Positions 3,260 to 19,131 of a stretch of 64,000 nucleotides of DNA are shown piece after piece (position 1 is the first letter of the stretch; each line of letters begins with the position of its first letter). This DNA comes from Candidatus Tumulicola sp. Lineage in GTDB: Bacteria > Vulcanimicrobiota > Vulcanimicrobiia > Vulcanimicrobiales > Vulcanimicrobiaceae. The translations under genes and the position numbers were made by a program. The stretch spans positions 124,001 to 188,000 of the forward strand of contig DASXDT010000006.1 of the NCBI GenBank assembly GCA_036490475.1, written 5' to 3'. The notes beneath the pieces were generated by a model. The model was not told the origin of the DNA. It saw only the letters and a list, made by a program, of their open reading frames with translations, and did not search any database.

Positions 3260-3973
3260 CTACGCTGTCGGTACCGGGTTTCCGATTTCGAACATGAGAA
3301 AGCGAGGCCGCCGCTTGAGCCGTAAGAACAGGCCCGGGTCGCGCCACAATAGGTGCGTAGCCGGCTGAGGCACTGCGGTCCGGCGAAGAACGAAGCCTGC
3401 ATCGGCGATCGCTTGAAGCATCTGGGTCAACGGGCGATAATAGCACGACACCTCGAACCCGAACGATGGCCAACGTTCCTTTACGAGGACGCATTCGTTC
3501 GAATCTATACCTGGCGGTGCTTCGTTGGGGTGCGTTACCGAGAAAAACATCGAACCACCGGGCCGTAACAACGAGCGGCAGTTACTAAGACCGCCTTTCC
3601 AATCTTTGACGTAATCGAGCACGAGGGAACAAACGATTACGTCGATTGCATTACGTTCGACCAATTCGAACGGTTCGCGAACATCGTGCACGCGAATGCG
3701 AGCGCGCCCCTCGAGGCGCGACGCCGCGATGGCGGCAAGCTGCGGGCTTGCATCGATACCGGTCAGCGTTCGAGGGTTACGTTCCGCGAAAAGCGCCAAC
3801 AGTGTGCCGGCGCCGCAGCCAACGTCCATAACATCTTTGTCCGCAATATCGCCGACGAGATCGAGCATCGAAGGACGTTCGTACGAGGCGTTATACGGCG
3901 ATCGCTCCGCATGCCCGGCGAACGCCAGAGCGCGATCGACGTACAAATGGTCGTTCAAACGGGGTTGCGGCAC
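3260..3973 (-). CDS. Class I SAM-dependent methyltransferase
   Basis: A 237-residue protein, GTG start, with the Rossmann-type methyltransferase fold. The SAM-binding motif I is VMDVGCGAGTLLALF around residues 50-65, followed by an acidic residue on strand 2 (GIDAS), a DVRE segment and the post-motif region IDVIVCSLVLDYV. These are features of the Methyltransf_11/25 families acting on small molecules or quinone-like substrates; the substrate cannot be read from sequence. It starts 17 bases after the xdhC stop codon and is probably in the same transcript. Confidence 0.85.
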   Translation of the reverse strand: MPQPRLNDHLYVDRALAFAGHAERSPYNASYERPSMLDLVGDIADKDVMDVGCGAGTLLALFAERNPRTLTGIDASPQLAAIAASRLEGRARIRVHDVREPFELVERNAIDVIVCSLVLDYVKDWKGGLSNCRSLLRPGGSMFFSVTHPNEAPPGIDSNECVLVKERWPSFGFEVSCYYRPLTQMLQAIADAGFVLRRTAVPQPATHLLWRDPGLFLRLKRRPRFLMFEIGNPVPTA

Positions 3974-3990
3974 AGAAAGTGTTCGCCGGG

Positions 3991-4941
3991 CTAGATGCGC
4001 TTCGCTAATTCGGGTTCGCGCCGGTGAATCGGGTGATGCGAAGCCGCTAACGTGCCGCCGCCTCCACCGCGGGCCGTCGCGACGATTTCGGCGACGATCG
4101 AAAGTGCGGTTTCGGCGATCGTAACGCCGCCGAGATCGAGTCCGGCTGGCCCGTAAATGCGGGCGATGTCGGCTTCATCAAAGCCGTCTTCTTGCAACGC
4201 ATCGCGACGCGAACGTTGCGCGCGGCGGCTCCCCAGTAATCCGACGTACGGAGCACTGCTGCGCAGACCGCAACGCAACGCCGGCAAATCGATTTTCGGA
4301 TCGTGCGACAGCACCACCAACGGTGTCGTCTCACCGAGCAGTATGGGCAGTACGTCGTCCGGCCACGCGACCATGATTTCATCGACCGCCGGAAGGCGAT
4401 CGCTCGTCGCAAATGCGGCTCTGGGGTCGATCGCGAGCGTCCGAAAATCGAGTCGTCGCGCAAACTCCGCGAGTTCGTTTGCCAATGCCGTCGCCCCGAC
4501 GACGACGATCGTCCGGCGTTTCGAAACGCGTAGGTGAAACACGCCCCTACTTCCATTTCGTCCATCGGGTACGTCGAAATCGGCGTCGTCTCTGCCCTCG
4601 GCGGCGCGTTGCGCAAACGATGCAAATGCTTCATCCGGCTTCCACACGCTGATATCGAGGGAGCCGCCGCATCCGCTGCTGCCGGTTAGCAGGTCGTCGC
4701 CGCTCAGGTCGATCGTTAGATCGCGTACCCTCCCGTCGACCGCGGTCGCACGAGCGGCCTCAACGATATCCGACTCATAGCAGCCCGCACCGACGTTGCC
4801 GACGATGCTTCCGTCGAGCGCGATCGCCATCGACGTGCCGATTTCGGCCGCTGCGGCGTCACGCCGCCCGACCAGCGTCGCGATCGCAAACGGAACGCGC
4901 GAACGCTGCCACGCGAGCGCACGCGCAAAGACCGCGCGCAC
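3991..4941 (-). CDS. xdhC: XdhC/CoxI family molybdoenzyme maturation factor
   Basis: A 316-residue protein with the two-part XdhC layout. The N-terminal domain carries GNVGAGCYES, which corresponds to the GxVSGGCVE signature, and SGCGG, matching the conserved GCGG segment. The C-terminal domain is a Rossmann fold starting near VVVGATALANELAEFARRL, with the conserved ending GLDLGGVTIAETALSIVAEIV. XdhC proteins bind the molybdenum cofactor and help insert a sulfido ligand before delivery to xanthine dehydrogenase or CO dehydrogenase-like enzymes. No molybdoenzyme gene is in the window, so the client is unknown. GTG start; a small acidic protein gene ends nine bases upstream. Confidence 0.85.
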   Translation of the reverse strand: MRAVFARALAWQRSRVPFAIATLVGRRDAAAAEIGTSMAIALDGSIVGNVGAGCYESDIVEAARATAVDGRVRDLTIDLSGDDLLTGSSGCGGSLDISVWKPDEAFASFAQRAAEGRDDADFDVPDGRNGSRGVFHLRVSKRRTIVVVGATALANELAEFARRLDFRTLAIDPRAAFATSDRLPAVDEIMVAWPDDVLPILLGETTPLVVLSHDPKIDLPALRCGLRSSAPYVGLLGSRRAQRSRRDALQEDGFDEADIARIYGPAGLDLGGVTIAETALSIVAEIVATARGGGGGTLAASHHPIHRREPELAKRI

Positions 4942-13371: not shown

Positions 13372-15507
13372 GTGTCGATGCTACGGTTCGGAGTCGCAAC
13401 CGCAGACCATCAGTGCGAAGCCTACGACGGAAACGACGACGTGCGGGACGTGTGGGAACGCGTGCGAGCGTTAGTGCCTCGCGGTAAAGCCACCGATTTC
13501 TGGAATCGCTACGGCGAAGATGTCGAGCTCGCGAAAAGCCTCGGCTGCACGGCATTTCGACTTTCCCTGTCGTGGGCGCGGCTCGAACCGCAGCCCGGCG
13601 TTTGGAATGACGAATCGTTCGCACATTACCGCGACGTGTTGCAATCGATTCGCGCAGCCGGAATGTCGGCCATCGTCACGCTCGTCCACAATACGTGGCC
13701 GTTGCACGTGCAAGCCGCCGGCGGAGGCGCGGGACCGCTCGACGCGGAGTTTCCCAACCGTGTTACGGCCTTTGCGACCGAGGTCGCGCAACGCCTCGGC
13801 GACCTGATCGACGACTACGTAACGCTCAACGAGCCGAACCAGCTGGTGTACGGCTGGATCAAAGGTTTCTGGATGCCCGCCTACGCGATGCCGCCCGGAC
13901 AGCCGCCGTATCAAACCGGCGACGAACAGATGGACGACGTCTTGATCCTTATTCCGAACCTGTTTCGCGCACACGCCAAGGCGCGCGATGCGATTCGCGC
14001 GATCCGCCCAACCGCACGCGTCGGCACGAATCCGCTGGTGTTGGGATTGCCGCAATGGTTGCAGCGTTGGGTCGACCGCAACGCCACGCACCTCCGTTCG
14101 CCCAACGACGCCAAGCGCCAAGCGGCGCGCATCGCGCAGTCCGCGATTGCCGAAGGCGGACGAGTGGATTGCTCGATCGCCCAGTTGACGCTAACCCGGC
14201 AGCGAGAGCAGCACGCGTTCTTCTCGGAGCCGTACTTTTGCACGCATCTCGCGGCGCTGCACGCGGCAACGCTCTCGCTACCCGACACGCAAACCTGGCG
14301 CGCGAACGTCGGCGTCGTTTCGCAGACGCTGACGGCCGACATCGTCGGCGGCTGGTTTCCGGCTGCGACCGTCTGCTATTTCGAATCGATGGAAGCGGCG
14401 GTCGCAGCGCTCCGTGCGGAAACGGTCGACGCTGTTTTCGACGACGAAGCGATGCTACGGGCGTTCGTGGATGGCGGCTTTTCGTCGACCCGGTTGCCCA
14501 GTTCCGAGCAGTATTTCGCCGTCGCGATGGCGCTCGGAAGCCGAACGCTGCTCAACATCGCGGACCGAGCGATTCGCGATCTGCGAGCGCAACGTTCGGA
14601 TATCCCGAACGCGCGCAATCGGAAAACGATCGCACACCTGGGCGATGGCGACGCACGCGCAGATGCTTCGAACGTGGCCGTACCCGACATGGACCGGTCG
14701 ATCGAACGGATTCGCAAGCGCGGCGTGCTGCGCGTCGGCGTACATCCGGGCGTTCCCGGCTTATGCGAACTGGTCAAGTCGGCGACGAAGCCCTCGGAAC
14801 GGTATAGCGGATTGGAACCGCAGGTCGCGCGCGCCATCGCGAAGCGTATTTTCGGAGATCCGGATCGCGTGCGGTTCGTCGAAGTCGGGGGCGCCCAGCG
14901 GCTGCAAGCGACGCGCTCGTGGGTCCATACGATCTTTGCGTTTCGCAAGAGCATCGCCATCTTCGGAACGCTCCTCGGAACGAATTGGTGGAACCTGGGT
15001 ATGGCCGGCAAGCTGCCCGGCTTTCTGTGTCCACCAGAATGTGTCGGCACGCTCGATTTTGTCGGCCTGGATTATTATTGGGGCGTGCCGTCTATTTGGC
15101 CGTCGCAACTGCACCGCCTCAGTGCTGCGGCGGATTTTCAATATGCGAACGCGCCGGTATGGCCGAGCGCACTCGATTCAATTCTCACCCAGGCCACACG
15201 CGACTTTCCGGGCAAGCCGATTTTCATCATCGAAAACGGATGCGTCGCCCGCGCGGCGGGCTTCAGTCGCGCCGACTATCTCCGCGCGCACGTCGAACAA
15301 GTGCGACGATCGGTCGAACGCGGCGCGCCGGTTGAAGCGTATCTCTGCTGGAGCATCACGTCGAACCGAGAGTGGGGTTTGCCGTTCGACGACGGCAGCG
15401 ACTTCGGTTTATATCACATCGATCTCGATACCGATCCCTCTCTCAAGCGCATGCCGACCGAATCCAGCCGCGAGTACGCTTCGCTGATCGTCAGTCAGAA
15501 GAGCTAA
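13372..15507 (+). CDS. GH1 glycosidase with a nested, apparently circularly permuted amino-acid-binding (SBP_bac_3) domain
   Basis: A 711-residue protein with no signal peptide. Residues 1-245 and 514-711 form a GH1 (beta-glucosidase-type) barrel: Gln14 and His106 of the -1 site, acid/base Glu154 in TLNEPN, nucleophile Glu621 in IIENG, and the CWSITSNREWG end motif. Between them lies a solute-binding domain in swapped order. Residues about 255-408 match the second part of an SBP_bac_3 protein (GRVDCSIAQLTLTRQRE, FFSEPYF, then TVDAVFDDEAM). Residues about 441-513 match its first part (SIERIRKRGVLRVGVHPGVP, then YSGLEPQVARAIAKRIFGDP). Ligand residues Arg278 (carboxylate) and Asp358 (amino group) appear kept. 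GTG start; an ATG two codons later is possible. Last gene of the rightward Trp-catabolism run; the final 17 bases overlap the convergent phosphatase. Confidence 0.82.
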   Translation: MSMLRFGVATADHQCEAYDGNDDVRDVWERVRALVPRGKATDFWNRYGEDVELAKSLGCTAFRLSLSWARLEPQPGVWNDESFAHYRDVLQSIRAAGMSAIVTLVHNTWPLHVQAAGGGAGPLDAEFPNRVTAFATEVAQRLGDLIDDYVTLNEPNQLVYGWIKGFWMPAYAMPPGQPPYQTGDEQMDDVLILIPNLFRAHAKARDAIRAIRPTARVGTNPLVLGLPQWLQRWVDRNATHLRSPNDAKRQAARIAQSAIAEGGRVDCSIAQLTLTRQREQHAFFSEPYFCTHLAALHAATLSLPDTQTWRANVGVVSQTLTADIVGGWFPAATVCYFESMEAAVAALRAETVDAVFDDEAMLRAFVDGGFSSTRLPSSEQYFAVAMALGSRTLLNIADRAIRDLRAQRSDIPNARNRKTIAHLGDGDARADASNVAVPDMDRSIERIRKRGVLRVGVHPGVPGLCELVKSATKPSERYSGLEPQVARAIAKRIFGDPDRVRFVEVGGAQRLQATRSWVHTIFAFRKSIAIFGTLLGTNWWNLGMAGKLPGFLCPPECVGTLDFVGLDYYWGVPSIWPSQLHRLSAAADFQYANAPVWPSALDSILTQATRDFPGKPIFIIENGCVARAAGFSRADYLRAHVEQVRRSVERGAPVEAYLCWSITSNREWGLPFDDGSDFGLYHIDLDTDPSLKRMPTESSREYASLIVSQKS

Positions 15508-16264
15508 ACACGGTCGCGATCTCGCCGTGTATCCGGCGGTTGGTCGCCAGGATCGACGGCGCGTCTAGGCGAGCGCGTTCTCCGTTGGTTTGTGACACCG
15601 TGCCGCCGGCCTCGCGAATCAGCAGCGTCCCTGCGGCGACGTCCCATGGTTTGAGATCGAACTCCCAAAAGCCATCGAACCGGCCGGAGGCGACGAACGC
15701 CAGATCCAACGCCGCGCTTCCGTCGCGCCGAACCGCTTGCGCGCGATCCGACATCGCCGCGAACCATTTGCCGTTGCGTGCATAATCGGATGGCTGGAAG
15801 CCGGTGCAAACCATCGCGTCGCCAAGACGTTGGACGGTCGAAACCTGGATCGGCGCTCCGTTCAATCGTGCGCCCTCGCCACGACGAGCCGTAAAACACT
15901 CGTCGATGGCCGGCGCATAGATGACGCCCGCAAGGAGTTCTCCATCGCGCTCGTAGCCGATCGACACGCAATACAGCGGATATCCGTGCGCGAAGTTGGT
16001 CGTTCCGTCCAGCGGATCGACGATCCAGCGCTCTCCCGAGCTGCCCGCTCGCGATCCACTCTCTTCGGCTAAAACGGCGGCGTTCGGAAACGAGCGACAC
16101 AACCGTTGGAGAACCGCGGACTCGGCGGCGCGGTCGGCGTCGGTCACCAGGTCGCCCCGTCGCCCTTTCTCGCTCACCATTCCCGGGTCGCGAGCATGAC
16201 GCGAGAGGAGAGCCCCGGCTTCGCGCGCTGCAGTGATCGCGACGTCGAGAGGATCGACCGGCAT
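15491..16264 (-). CDS. suhB: Inositol monophosphatase family protein
   Basis: A 257-residue Mg2+-dependent phosphatase of the IMPase/SuhB family, which hydrolyses inositol-1-phosphate or related sugar phosphates. The metal-binding signatures are complete: LAEES (Glu of motif A), WIVDPLDGTTNFAH (Asp-Pro-Leu-Asp-Gly motif) and the C-terminal PWDVAAGTLLIREAGG. Length is normal. The gene points left, toward the glycosidase, and its upstream side faces the M-box leader, so it is divergent from the Mg2+ transport operon. Other family activities (histidinol phosphate, fructose-1,6-bisphosphate, PAP) cannot be excluded. Confidence 0.88.
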   Translation of the reverse strand: MPVDPLDVAITAAREAGALLSRHARDPGMVSEKGRRGDLVTDADRAAESAVLQRLCRSFPNAAVLAEESGSRAGSSGERWIVDPLDGTTNFAHGYPLYCVSIGYERDGELLAGVIYAPAIDECFTARRGEGARLNGAPIQVSTVQRLGDAMVCTGFQPSDYARNGKWFAAMSDRAQAVRRDGSAALDLAFVASGRFDGFWEFDLKPWDVAAGTLLIREAGGTVSQTNGERARLDAPSILATNRRIHGEIATVFSSSD

Positions 16265-16331
16265 CTTCGACCGGTTGGACGCGAACGCTCCGCTTCCGCT
16301 CGAAGGCGAAGGGCGCTCGTGCTTTCCGGGG

Positions 16332-16337
16332 TATACT
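16332..16337 (+). promoter_or_regulatory. Likely -10 element of the Mg2+ operon leader
   Basis: TATACT at 16332-16337 matches the sigma-70 type -10 consensus at five of six positions and would place the transcription start about seven bases later, just before the M-box begins. I see no good -35 box at the usual distance. Confidence 0.45.
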
Positions 16338-16344
16338 GGGGTCG

Positions 16345-16528
16345 AGTTACCTCGCTAGGTGAGGCGTCCACGCAACTACACGCCGCTGCCCCGAAACGTC
16401 GAGAGACGCCAAGTGGGTGGACCAGACTACGCCGATACAAGGCGATGTCTAACGCGGCTACGACCGGCAAAGCCTTCGGGCTTCGGTTTCGACGGTGCGT
16501 GGTGTCAAAGCTCGGTGCGAATGGGGTG
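16345..16528 (+). promoter_or_regulatory. M-box (ykoK leader) Mg2+ riboswitch
   Basis: The leader matches the ykoK/M-box consensus in order: CTAGGTGAGGC (16355-16365), GCCGCTGCCC with the following GAAACGTC and GAGACGCCAAG (about 16382-16413), a variable helix, and the 3' closing segment GTGTCAAAGCTC with GCGA (about 16502-16520). M-box RNAs fold when Mg2+ is high and switch off Mg2+ uptake genes. The closing helix can pair TCGC at 16352-16355 with GCGA at 16517-16520 and extend through CC at 16350-16351 with GG at 16523-16526. That 3' strand is also the Shine-Dalgarno region (GGGG 16523-16526, six bases before the ATG at 16533), so folding would directly hide the ribosome binding site. The downstream genes, an MgtE-domain protein and an Nramp-related transporter, agree with this. 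Confidence 0.88.
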
Positions 16529-16532
16529 CGAA

Positions 16533-17837
16533 ATGGCGTTCACGCAGGGATTTATCTCTGATTTGGTCGGTCGGCGAGCGACCGTCAATGATTTAACGAT
16601 CGGCAAAGTTGCCGATTTTCTCATCACTAGTCCGGACGACGCTTTTCCGCCGATCGACGGATTGGTGATTAAAACTGCGCGCGGTTTGCGCTTTGCACCG
16701 ATGGACACCGTGGCCGACGTCGACCGAAACGGAACGGTGGCGTTGACCGTCACACCCGACAAAGCCGCGCCCAGCGACGACGAGCGCCTCTATCTGGTTG
16801 CCGACCTGCTCGATAAGCAGATCGTCGACGTGAACGGCCGTAAGGTCGTGCGCATCAACGACATCGAGGTCGCCGATACCGGCGGCCGTTTGCGCGTGTT
16901 GGCTGCCGATGTCGGCGTCGGTGGACTGCTGCGGCGATTGGGGCTGCGCTCGCTCGGACGGCGAGTAACGCCGGTTAACGCGCCAGGGATGCCGAATTCG
17001 ATGATCGCGTGGAGTGCGGTCTCACCCATCCGCGAAGCGAATCCGGCCAACGTGCGGCTTTCGGTGACGCAAAACCGGCTCGCCCGGCTGCATCCGTCGG
17101 AACTGGCCGAAATCATCAGCGAACTTTCGGCGCGCGAAGCCGCCGCGGTCGTAGGACAGCTCGACGACGAGACTGCCGCCGACGCGTTCGAACATCTCGA
17201 CGTCGAGAAGCAAAAGACGATCATCGGCGATATCGGTACCGAGCGTGCCGCCGACATCATCGAAGAGATGGATGCCGACGATGCCGCCGATCTTCTCGGC
17301 GAGCTGCCCGCGGAACGGCAATCCGAGCTGCTGGCGGAGATGAACGATTACACCGCCGGTGAGCTGCGCGAACTCGTCAAGTACGATGAAGATACGGCCG
17401 GCGGTCTCATGACCACCGACTTCGTTTGGATTTACCCGCACCGCACCACCGAAGCGACCATCCGCAAGATTCGGGAAATCGCTCCGGCGACGGAGTTCAT
17501 TTACTATCTTTACGTGCTCGACAAGAACGACCACCTGATGGGAACGATCTCGCTGCGCACCCTGCTGCTGGCGTTGCCGACGGCCTTTATCGACCGCGTC
17601 ATGAATACCGACGTCGTCAGCGTCGCGGCCGATACGCCGGCCGTCGAAGTGGCCGCGACGATCGCCCGCTACGACCTGTTGGCCGTTCCTGTACTGCGCG
17701 ACGACGGCACGATGATCGGAATCGTGACGGTCGACGACGCCATCGACGCGATCATGCCAGGCGACGTCGCCAAGAAGCTGCCGCGCTTCACCGCACGCCA
17801 CCATTCGGTTTCAACCGGTGTCAGCTCCGGTACCTGA
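16533..17837 (+). CDS. Soluble PRC-barrel / MgtE_N / CBS-pair protein (Mg2+ transport regulator)
   Basis: A 434-residue protein with no transmembrane segment. The N-terminal part has two PRC-barrel-like units (about residues 5-75 and 90-135). Next come MgtE_N helical repeats (about 180-300), rich in Glu/Asp-Ala-Ala-Asp motifs such as DADDAADLLGELPAERQ. A CBS-domain pair follows, starting at EDTAGGLMTTDFVW and ending near VTVDDAIDAIMPGD. This is the cytosolic Mg2+-sensing half of an MgtE channel without the pore. It is controlled by the M-box and overlaps the start of the Nramp-related transporter by 20 bases, so it probably acts as that transporter's Mg2+-sensing gate. The ATG at 16533 has GGGGTG upstream; a longer in-frame extension would run through the riboswitch. 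Confidence 0.85.
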   Translation: MAFTQGFISDLVGRRATVNDLTIGKVADFLITSPDDAFPPIDGLVIKTARGLRFAPMDTVADVDRNGTVALTVTPDKAAPSDDERLYLVADLLDKQIVDVNGRKVVRINDIEVADTGGRLRVLAADVGVGGLLRRLGLRSLGRRVTPVNAPGMPNSMIAWSAVSPIREANPANVRLSVTQNRLARLHPSELAEIISELSAREAAAVVGQLDDETAADAFEHLDVEKQKTIIGDIGTERAADIIEEMDADDAADLLGELPAERQSELLAEMNDYTAGELRELVKYDEDTAGGLMTTDFVWIYPHRTTEATIRKIREIAPATEFIYYLYVLDKNDHLMGTISLRTLLLALPTAFIDRVMNTDVVSVAADTPAVEVAATIARYDLLAVPVLRDDGTMIGIVTVDDAIDAIMPGDVAKKLPRFTARHHSVSTGVSSGT

Positions 17838-19131
17838 AACGGCCGCGTCCGGCCCTCGGCCACGCAAACGTTCGCTCCTAAAATCGCTGATGATCTTCGC
17901 GGCGATTTTAGGTCCGGGTTTCATCACGGCCTCGGCCGGCAACGACGTCGGCGGCATTCTGCAATATTCACAAGCCGGTGCGCAATTCGGATACTCGCTG
18001 CTGTGGGTGATGATTCCGCTGGCGATCGCGCTGATCGTCGTGCAAGAGATGGCGACGCGCATGGGGACGGTCACCGGCAAAGGCCTCGCTGCACTCGTGC
18101 GCGAGAACTTTGGCGTTCGCATTTCCTTCATCGCGATGTTGCTGCTCTTCTTCATCAACACGCTGTTGACGAGTACCGAATTCGCCGGCATCGCCGCAGC
18201 GGCCCAGATCTTCGGTATATCGAAGTATCTGGCGGTCCCGGTCGCACTGATCGTCGTGTTTCTCTTCGTATTGCGCTTCGACAACAAAATCGTCGAGCGA
18301 ACGTTCGTCGTTTTATCCTTGATCTATCTGACGTATATCGGGTCGGCGGTGATGGCACATCCCAACTGGCACGAGGTCGCCCACGGAGCGTTGGTTCCGT
18401 CGTTTCCGTTTCGTACGGTCGGTTGGATTGCGGCCGTCGTGGGGTTAATCGGGACCACCATCTCCCCGTACATGCAGTTCTTCCTACAGTCGGCGGTCGT
18501 CGAAAAAGGTAGGCGCGCCAACCAGCTGACGGCCGCTCGGATCGACGTCGTGAACGGCTCGGTCCTAGCGATCGTCCTGGCCGGCTTCATGATCATCGCC
18601 AATGCTGCCACGATCTATCTCGCGAACCAGCACGGCGCGCACATCGTCGCGAATACCGTGTCGGACTTCGCTGCGGCGCTCAAGCCGCTCGCCGGTGAAT
18701 CTGCCGCCGTCATCTTCGCGCTCGGCATTTTGAATGCAGGCGTATTTACCGCCGCCGTACTTCCACTCTCCACGTCGTACATTATTTGTGAAGCCCTGGG
18801 ATTCGAAGCTGCGATCGATCGCACGTTCGAACAGGCGCCGGTCTTCTTCTCACTGTTCGCGGCCGGTCTGGTCGCAGGCGCGGCCATCGTACTGATCCCG
18901 AATTTGCCGTTACTGCAGTTGGTGCTGTTCGCCCAAGTACTGCAAGGCATCGTGCTCCCGGCCGAGCTCGTCTTGATGCTCATCATCATCAACCGCACGC
19001 ACATCATGGGGCGCCACACCAACTCGCCGGTGGCCAACGCGATCGCCTGGACCACCGTCGTGGTCGTCGGATCGTTATCCGTGCTGTATGTGGCCGGACA
19101 ATTTTTTCCAAGATTGCTTGGGTCGCATTAA
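17818..19131 (+). CDS. Nramp-related Mg2+ transporter (NRMT-like)
   Basis: A 437-residue membrane protein of the SLC11/Nramp fold with about 11 helices. The metal-site motifs differ from classical Mn2+/Fe2+ transporters. The DPGN of helix 1 reads SAGND in GPGFITASAGNDVGG, and the MPHN of helix 6 region reads SPYM in GTTISPYMQFFLQS. Loss of the soft-metal Met in helix 6, together with an M-box riboswitch and an MgtE-domain partner, fits the Nramp-related magnesium transporter group described from clostridia and Eggerthella. GTG start inside the previous gene (20-base overlap) suggests translational coupling. The regulator gene begins directly after its stop codon. Confidence 0.85.
   Translation: MSAPVPETAASGPRPRKRSLLKSLMIFAAILGPGFITASAGNDVGGILQYSQAGAQFGYSLLWVMIPLAIALIVVQEMATRMGTVTGKGLAALVRENFGVRISFIAMLLLFFINTLLTSTEFAGIAAAAQIFGISKYLAVPVALIVVFLFVLRFDNKIVERTFVVLSLIYLTYIGSAVMAHPNWHEVAHGALVPSFPFRTVGWIAAVVGLIGTTISPYMQFFLQSAVVEKGRRANQLTAARIDVVNGSVLAIVLAGFMIIANAATIYLANQHGAHIVANTVSDFAAALKPLAGESAAVIFALGILNAGVFTAAVLPLSTSYIICEALGFEAAIDRTFEQAPVFFSLFAAGLVAGAAIVLIPNLPLLQLVLFAQVLQGIVLPAELVLMLIIINRTHIMGRHTNSPVANAIAWTTVVVVGSLSVLYVAGQFFPRLLGSH

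Follow-up and report, generated by a model that had tools for sequence, protein, structure and literature searches.

A candidate platform-less M-box in Candidatus Tumulicola sp., with the putative Shine-Dalgarno sequence of its gene in the closing helix, and repeated platform loss in its phylum

How might a magnesium riboswitch control a gene that starts immediately behind its aptamer? The question is raised by an M-box in the window, i.e. the entire 64,000-nucleotide stretch of Candidatus Tumulicola sp. DNA that was analysed. The features concerned are as follows.

16332..16337, + strand, TATACT, candidate -10 element (direct reading)
16344..16532, + strand, M-box (Mg2+) riboswitch aptamer (RF00380, 106 bits, E 1.3e-22, model positions 1-169, complete)
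16348..16355, + strand, 5' strand of the closing helix P1 (outer six pairs 16348-16353, inner two 16354-16355; Rfam structure line and covariation)
16517..16528, + strand, 3' strand of P1 (16517-16518, internal loop 16519-16522, then 16523-16528; Rfam structure line and covariation)
16523..16527, + strand, GGGGU, putative Shine-Dalgarno (SD) sequence of the MgtE_N-CBS gene, wholly in P1 and 5 nt before the ATG at 16533
16533..17837, + strand, MgtE_N-CBS gene without the MgtE membrane domain (Pfam MgtE_N 3.1e-27, CBS 5.2e-17; start ATG 16533)
17818..19131, + strand, Nramp-type transporter gene (Pfam Nramp 9.6e-86)

The match extends over the whole RF00380 covariance model and, at 106 bits, exceeds the gathering score of 44; an M-box at 16345-16535, as proposed in a preliminary description of this DNA, is thus confirmed, and it is the sole M-box of its genome in an Rfam RF00380 search. 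Where 60 nt of upstream sequence is available (111 phylum M-boxes), a -10-like hexamer most often ends 5-6 nt before the first aptamer model position; by direct reading there is no TTGAC ahead of the TATACT in the window. We infer that the transcript starts at the aptamer or just before it. The MgtE_N-CBS and Nramp-type genes overlap by 20 nt and are probably co-transcribed.

The window also contains a cobalamin riboswitch (RF00174, 44647-44766, + strand, 75 bits, model positions 45-169), and a 711-residue frame (13372-15507, + strand) that matches glycosyl hydrolase family 1 and, at about residues 261-406, shows weak similarity to a solute-binding protein; the solute-binding-like part is perhaps a fused or inserted domain.

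The closing helix and the start codon

In the RF00380 structure the outer part of P1 pairs 16348-16353 with 16523-16528 (U-G, A-U, C-G, C-G, U-G and C-G), and the inner part pairs 16354-16355 with 16517-16518. The preliminary description had assigned both GCGA (16517-16520) and GGGG (16523-16526) to the 3' strand; the GC of the former is indeed paired, but 16519-16522 form an internal loop, whereas GGGG lies six bases ahead of the ATG, as had been stated. The helix does not end well before 16517, an outcome that would have told against the proposal, since its pairing reaches 16517-16528.

Covariation was assessed with 188 M-boxes (112 complete ones from the phylum and 76 from elsewhere), which give 161 distinct end pairs; 11 of the 123 phylum matches (L097 and L114-L123) were excluded as cut, weak or misplaced. 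From the outermost pair (16348-16528) inwards to 16353-16523, standard pairs are formed in 97, 123, 142, 150, 155 and 157 of the 161 rows, with 28, 57, 18, 18, 17 and 12 changes on both sides, respectively. The observed covariation was equalled by none of 1000 shuffles for the inner five pairs and by 3 of 1000 for the outermost, shuffles that disregard relatedness. The four inner pairs hardly differ among the phylum's own M-boxes and hence carry little covariation information in this subset, where it is the pair 16349-16527 that gives a signal (25 changes on both sides, equalled by 0 of 1000 shuffles). All six outer pairs covary across phyla, including those that hold the SD sequence, so the helix containing it is real. 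The two outermost pairs are absent in three other phylum loci (L006, L065 and L020) and one is absent in L089.

GGGGU is the sole good SD-like stretch for the gene. Its duplex with the anti-SD sequence (-6.0 kcal/mol) is at least as strong as that of 94% of the 725 + strand ATGs in the window; its spacing to the start codon, 4 nt by duplex calculation, is short. Of 41 relatives, three have the anti-SD pattern CCTCCTT, located at the 3' end of their 16S matches; a search of the assembly that contains the window did not find it. GRGG is common as the M-box P1 3' strand among the covariation rows, and GGGG by itself therefore proves no use as an SD sequence. P1 ends at 16528, 4 nt before the ATG, and an expression platform therefore has no space. 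An intrinsic terminator between aptamer and gene is accordingly absent from this 4-nt gap, and a stricter scan of 16200-17000 found no terminators (1.0 expected).

Direct and platform-bearing M-boxes in the phylum

The survey of the phylum (Candidatus Eremiobacterota) covered 149 genomes, 96 of which have an M-box, and all 123 M-box places were retrieved. An MgtE_N-CBS ortholog stands behind the M-box in 48 of these. In six of the 48 the arrangement is direct, with the start codon at -2 to +6 relative to the aptamer end: the window locus (L001), L006, L065, L089, L015 and L115, the last having an aptamer that is truncated at its 5' side, where the contig ends, but continues as far as the base immediately preceding the ATG. 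In 39 the start is distant (56-201 nt past the aptamer), and in 36 of these (36 of the 42 non-direct places overall) the intervening space contains a terminator-like hairpin followed by a T-run, the typical platform being a ACCGGTCGC..GCGACCGGT hairpin, T's and then a strong SD sequence. The terminator finder was home-made and permissive, e.g. with 200 nt it also flags intragenic hairpins in all six direct orthologs, and the count was therefore limited to the space between aptamer and start. The phylum has 75 further M-boxes, 70 of which are followed by a hairpin and T-run within 150 nt, and since most phylum M-boxes carry them the terminator type is likely ancestral. One of these 75, L020, has an Nramp start directly behind the M-box, with a weaker SD sequence and 2-nt spacing. 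The direct lineages fall in genera g1, g14, g15, g16 and g33. The aptamers of the direct orthologs are intact, scoring 106-136.6 bits (94 bits for the one cut by its contig end).

Two genomes, G101 and G105, are sisters in the protein tree (47 of the 48 orthologs, L040 being too short and left out) with end branches of 0.012 and 0.014. Their leaders align closely until P1 and again from the start codon; between these, a single gap of about 75 nt in G101 relative to G105 corresponds to the missing terminator and normal SD sequence. Across the tree the direct or platform label needs five changes, at least four of which are forced by well supported branches, and repeated loss of the platform in the phylum is on this basis well supported. 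Placing the direct rows in one group was rejected for all six (p-AU 5e-71), for five (without L015; p-AU 1e-73) and for four (without L015 and L115; p-AU 0.01). A group of the window, L006 and L065 was not rejected (p-AU 0.26); the window's branch is weakly placed, and the window and genus g14 may have one loss in common. The label would likewise change if a terminator were regained, which may account for part of the changes counted.

Because the 3' strand of M-box P1 already resembles an SD sequence, a change of switch in a single step is possible. The evidence leans, if modestly, towards the view that one deletion between the P1 strand and the real SD sequence would turn transcriptional into translational control, and that a single gene has undergone this change four or more times within one phylum, with G101 and G105 as a near-isogenic before-and-after pair. 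The occurrence of the gene with and without a platform in sister genomes makes the question a simple experiment.

A short distance between aptamer and ATG is not a commonplace. Outside the phylum, 790 genomes around four centres (Acidobacteriota, an actinobacterium, a Desulfofundulus and a delta proteobacterium) gave 74 M-boxes, to which two more were added; none of the 76 is convincingly direct. A frame of at least 80 residues opens within 15 nt of the aptamer in eight, all of which were dismissed by eye: a terminator hairpin occupies this stretch in L188, L224, L210, L214 and L216; L212 differs little from L210, although the hairpin that the finder placed in it is a later one; in L184 the GTG falls within the P1 strand, leaving no space for an SD sequence, and later starts are present; and L252 is a weak match with a 91-residue frame. 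A scan of species genomes that required an ATG behind an M-box-like 3' end (3-9 nt past a GRGG P1 strand, a pattern that covers part of the possible sequences and that the window itself would not match) gave 51 stretches, 17 with an M-box core. The ATG opens a long frame in two of the 17, both from Eremiobacterota and both already in the phylum set. Two candidates that passed the motif filter, L142 and L146, are not M-boxes by Rfam.

Two further arrangements were observed within the phylum. In three loci of genus g21 (L119, L122 and L123) the 3' part of the M-box is broken (33-45 bits) with the same MgtE_N-CBS gene behind it, an apparent case of riboswitch decay in one genus; a TATACT-like stretch lies within the remaining leader. 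L151, on a contig shared with L006 and L104, has two M-boxes on the same strand (936-1175 and 3816-3995), one direct, before an MgtE_N-CBS gene, and the second with a terminator, before an Nramp gene.

Relation to known riboswitches and proposed mechanism

The same aptamer family (RF00380) and the same kind of gene are found in the ykoK/mgtE-type M-box of B. subtilis (Mg2+-I), which acts by an intrinsic terminator. By contrast, the window has neither a terminator nor space for one, and its SD sequence lies in P1. The same gene pair as in the window, i.e. genes for an MgtE N-domain protein and an Nramp-related transporter, is found behind the M-box in the nrmT operons according to the available portion of PMC4072509, but there, unlike in the window, the M-box acts via a terminator. 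There is a likeness in control to the pe20 Mbox of M. tuberculosis, presented in the part of PMC12810186 at hand as the first translational M-box, the ligand-bound form of which is proposed to sequester SD1. As in pe20, control in the window would be translational with an SD sequence at the aptamer end. In pe20, however, SD1 serves a small uORF, a downstream anti-SD sequence controls a second ORF, and Rho-dependent termination is involved (PMC12810186, same part); the window has no uORF, second SD sequence or anti-SD sequence between aptamer and main gene, the P1 SD sequence serving the main gene directly with nothing in between. The preliminary view that most described M-boxes use a terminator or an anti-SD hairpin should be narrowed: the literature consulted describes terminators and a single case of an anti-SD sequence, that of M. 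tuberculosis (PMC12810186).

The mode itself has precedents in other classes. Direct translation attenuation is defined in PMC2258182, the available part of which reports it for TPP, preQ1 and SAM-I riboswitches and calls its rarity elsewhere unexplained; the start codon is within 15 nt of the aptamer and, in SAM-I, the ribosome binding site is in the 3' side of P1. The window resembles these systems in that its ATG is less than 15 nt from the aptamer and, as in SAM-I, the binding site is in the 3' side of P1; it is buried in the aptamer in the sense of PMC2258182, as GGGGU (16523-16527), the best SD sequence, pairs in P1. It differs in that direct attenuation is described there for metabolite riboswitches, the term magnesium being absent from that paper. 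A literature search that reached few subscription papers found no M-box with the SD sequence of the main gene inside P1, and the portions seen of PMC9943018, PMC12121620 and PMC9111926 added nothing on direct M-boxes. The window's M-box belongs to an established riboswitch class but would work in a way so far described for others; the more interesting finding is that the platform was lost repeatedly.

The reading that we favour, with a probability of roughly 0.7, is that the window carries a platform-less M-box that controls translation directly, is OFF at high Mg2+ and was derived from a transcription attenuator by deletion. Transcription would begin at the aptamer or just before it. At high Mg2+ the aptamer would compact and hold P1 closed, masking GGGGU and excluding the ribosome, such that the MgtE_N-CBS gene and the overlapping Nramp gene would be off; at low Mg2+ P1 would open, the ribosome would take GGGGU and the operon would be on. 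The attenuator would have lost its terminator and original SD sequence, with the SD-like P1 strand taking over. The absence of a separate platform and the location of the SD sequence inside P1, both suggested in the preliminary description, are well supported by the covariation, by the terminator that orthologs have at the same place and by its repeated loss. Were this reading to hold, the M-box would amount to a start site of about 190 nt that is controlled by Mg2+ and complete in itself.

The energetics are compatible with such a switch, in that the outer six pairs of P1 (about -5.2 kcal/mol; -6.6 for all eight) and the SD duplex (-6.0) are nearly balanced, so tertiary stabilisation could decide between P1 and the ribosome. 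Mg2+ stabilises the compact M-box aptamer in B. subtilis (PMC12810186 and PMC4072509, in the parts available), and a compact aptamer so stabilised would settle the competition. Several findings count against the mechanism: folding without tertiary contacts favours another structure (-68.2 versus -58.4 kcal/mol); with P1 opened, the SD sequence is only partly free, the probability that 16523-16527 are unpaired being 0.14-0.43, or 0.26-0.71 with the 5' strand barred; the SD sequence is weaker than those of the platform orthologs (median -12.4 kcal/mol); its spacing is short; and outer pairs are missing in L006, L065, L020 and L089. The fold of the entire leader is no more stable than those of shuffled sequences (z 0.13), its energy thus being uninformative as evidence.

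Some of these features could also reflect a leader uncoupled by the loss of its terminator, in which the M-box no longer regulates, either because P1 keeps translation constantly low or because the ribosome always wins, the aptamer being a recent relic. The weakness of P1, the moderate SD sequence, the youth of the platform loss in G101 and the window aptamer's bit score, which is below those of most of the phylum's 123 M-boxes, all fit this view. We nevertheless regard it as rather unlikely, as direct loci at several places in the tree have intact aptamers, whereas the 3'-broken M-boxes of genus g21 have decayed, and a relic would not be expected to retain P1 pairing with the SD strand. Alternatively, SD masking might work mainly via transcription, the untranslated mRNA being terminated prematurely, either through Rho or at a hairpin in the coding sequence. 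Rho-dependent termination accompanies the M. tuberculosis Mbox (PMC12810186, in the part available), and the window has a hairpin followed by TTTTCTC (16597-16620, + strand, codons for IGKVADF) of -11.0 kcal/mol, equalled by 8 of 400 synonymous recodings. It is absent from the five remaining direct orthologs (-1.9 to -6.2 kcal/mol), and the stricter scan did not recover it as a terminator; such mixed control has a low probability. Being strong in the window only, an intragenic terminator was rejected as a common feature of the direct M-boxes.

Translation might instead begin at the ATG at 16521 or the GTG at 16515, both of which are in frame and open, with GGGG being the usual P1 strand, as the frequency of GRGG in the family would allow. 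The SD energies of these starts are just -3.0 and -2.8 kcal/mol, respectively, versus -6.0 for 16533, the codons ahead of 16533 are aptamer sequence, and the orthologs with dedicated SD sequences begin at the residue equivalent to that encoded at 16533, all of which make another start very improbable.

Promoters and short reading frames at the phylum's M-boxes

Of the 111 phylum M-box promoters, 99 have a TTGAC, which lies 7-8 nt before the -10-like hexamer in 61 (e.g. L064, L025 and L089) and 16-18 nt before it in 35. TTGAC-N(8,9)-TATACT occurs in the genomes of 32 of 41 relatives, where normal spacing occurs alongside, and a reversed control pattern matches few; a promoter spacer of half length would be odd.

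A conserved short ORF, mostly of 18-34 codons and starting (M/V)DDGPS or (M/V)DG, is found behind the terminator, together with a strong SD sequence, in 36 M-box loci that are unlinked to an MgtE_N gene (35 of 72 with a narrower search window), mostly about 85-130 nt past the M-box (L004, L014, L018, L034, L038, L088 and others). No Rfam families besides the M-box were found in the five such loci scanned. The short ORF may encode a leader peptide; its acidic start presumably resembles that of the mgtL peptide.
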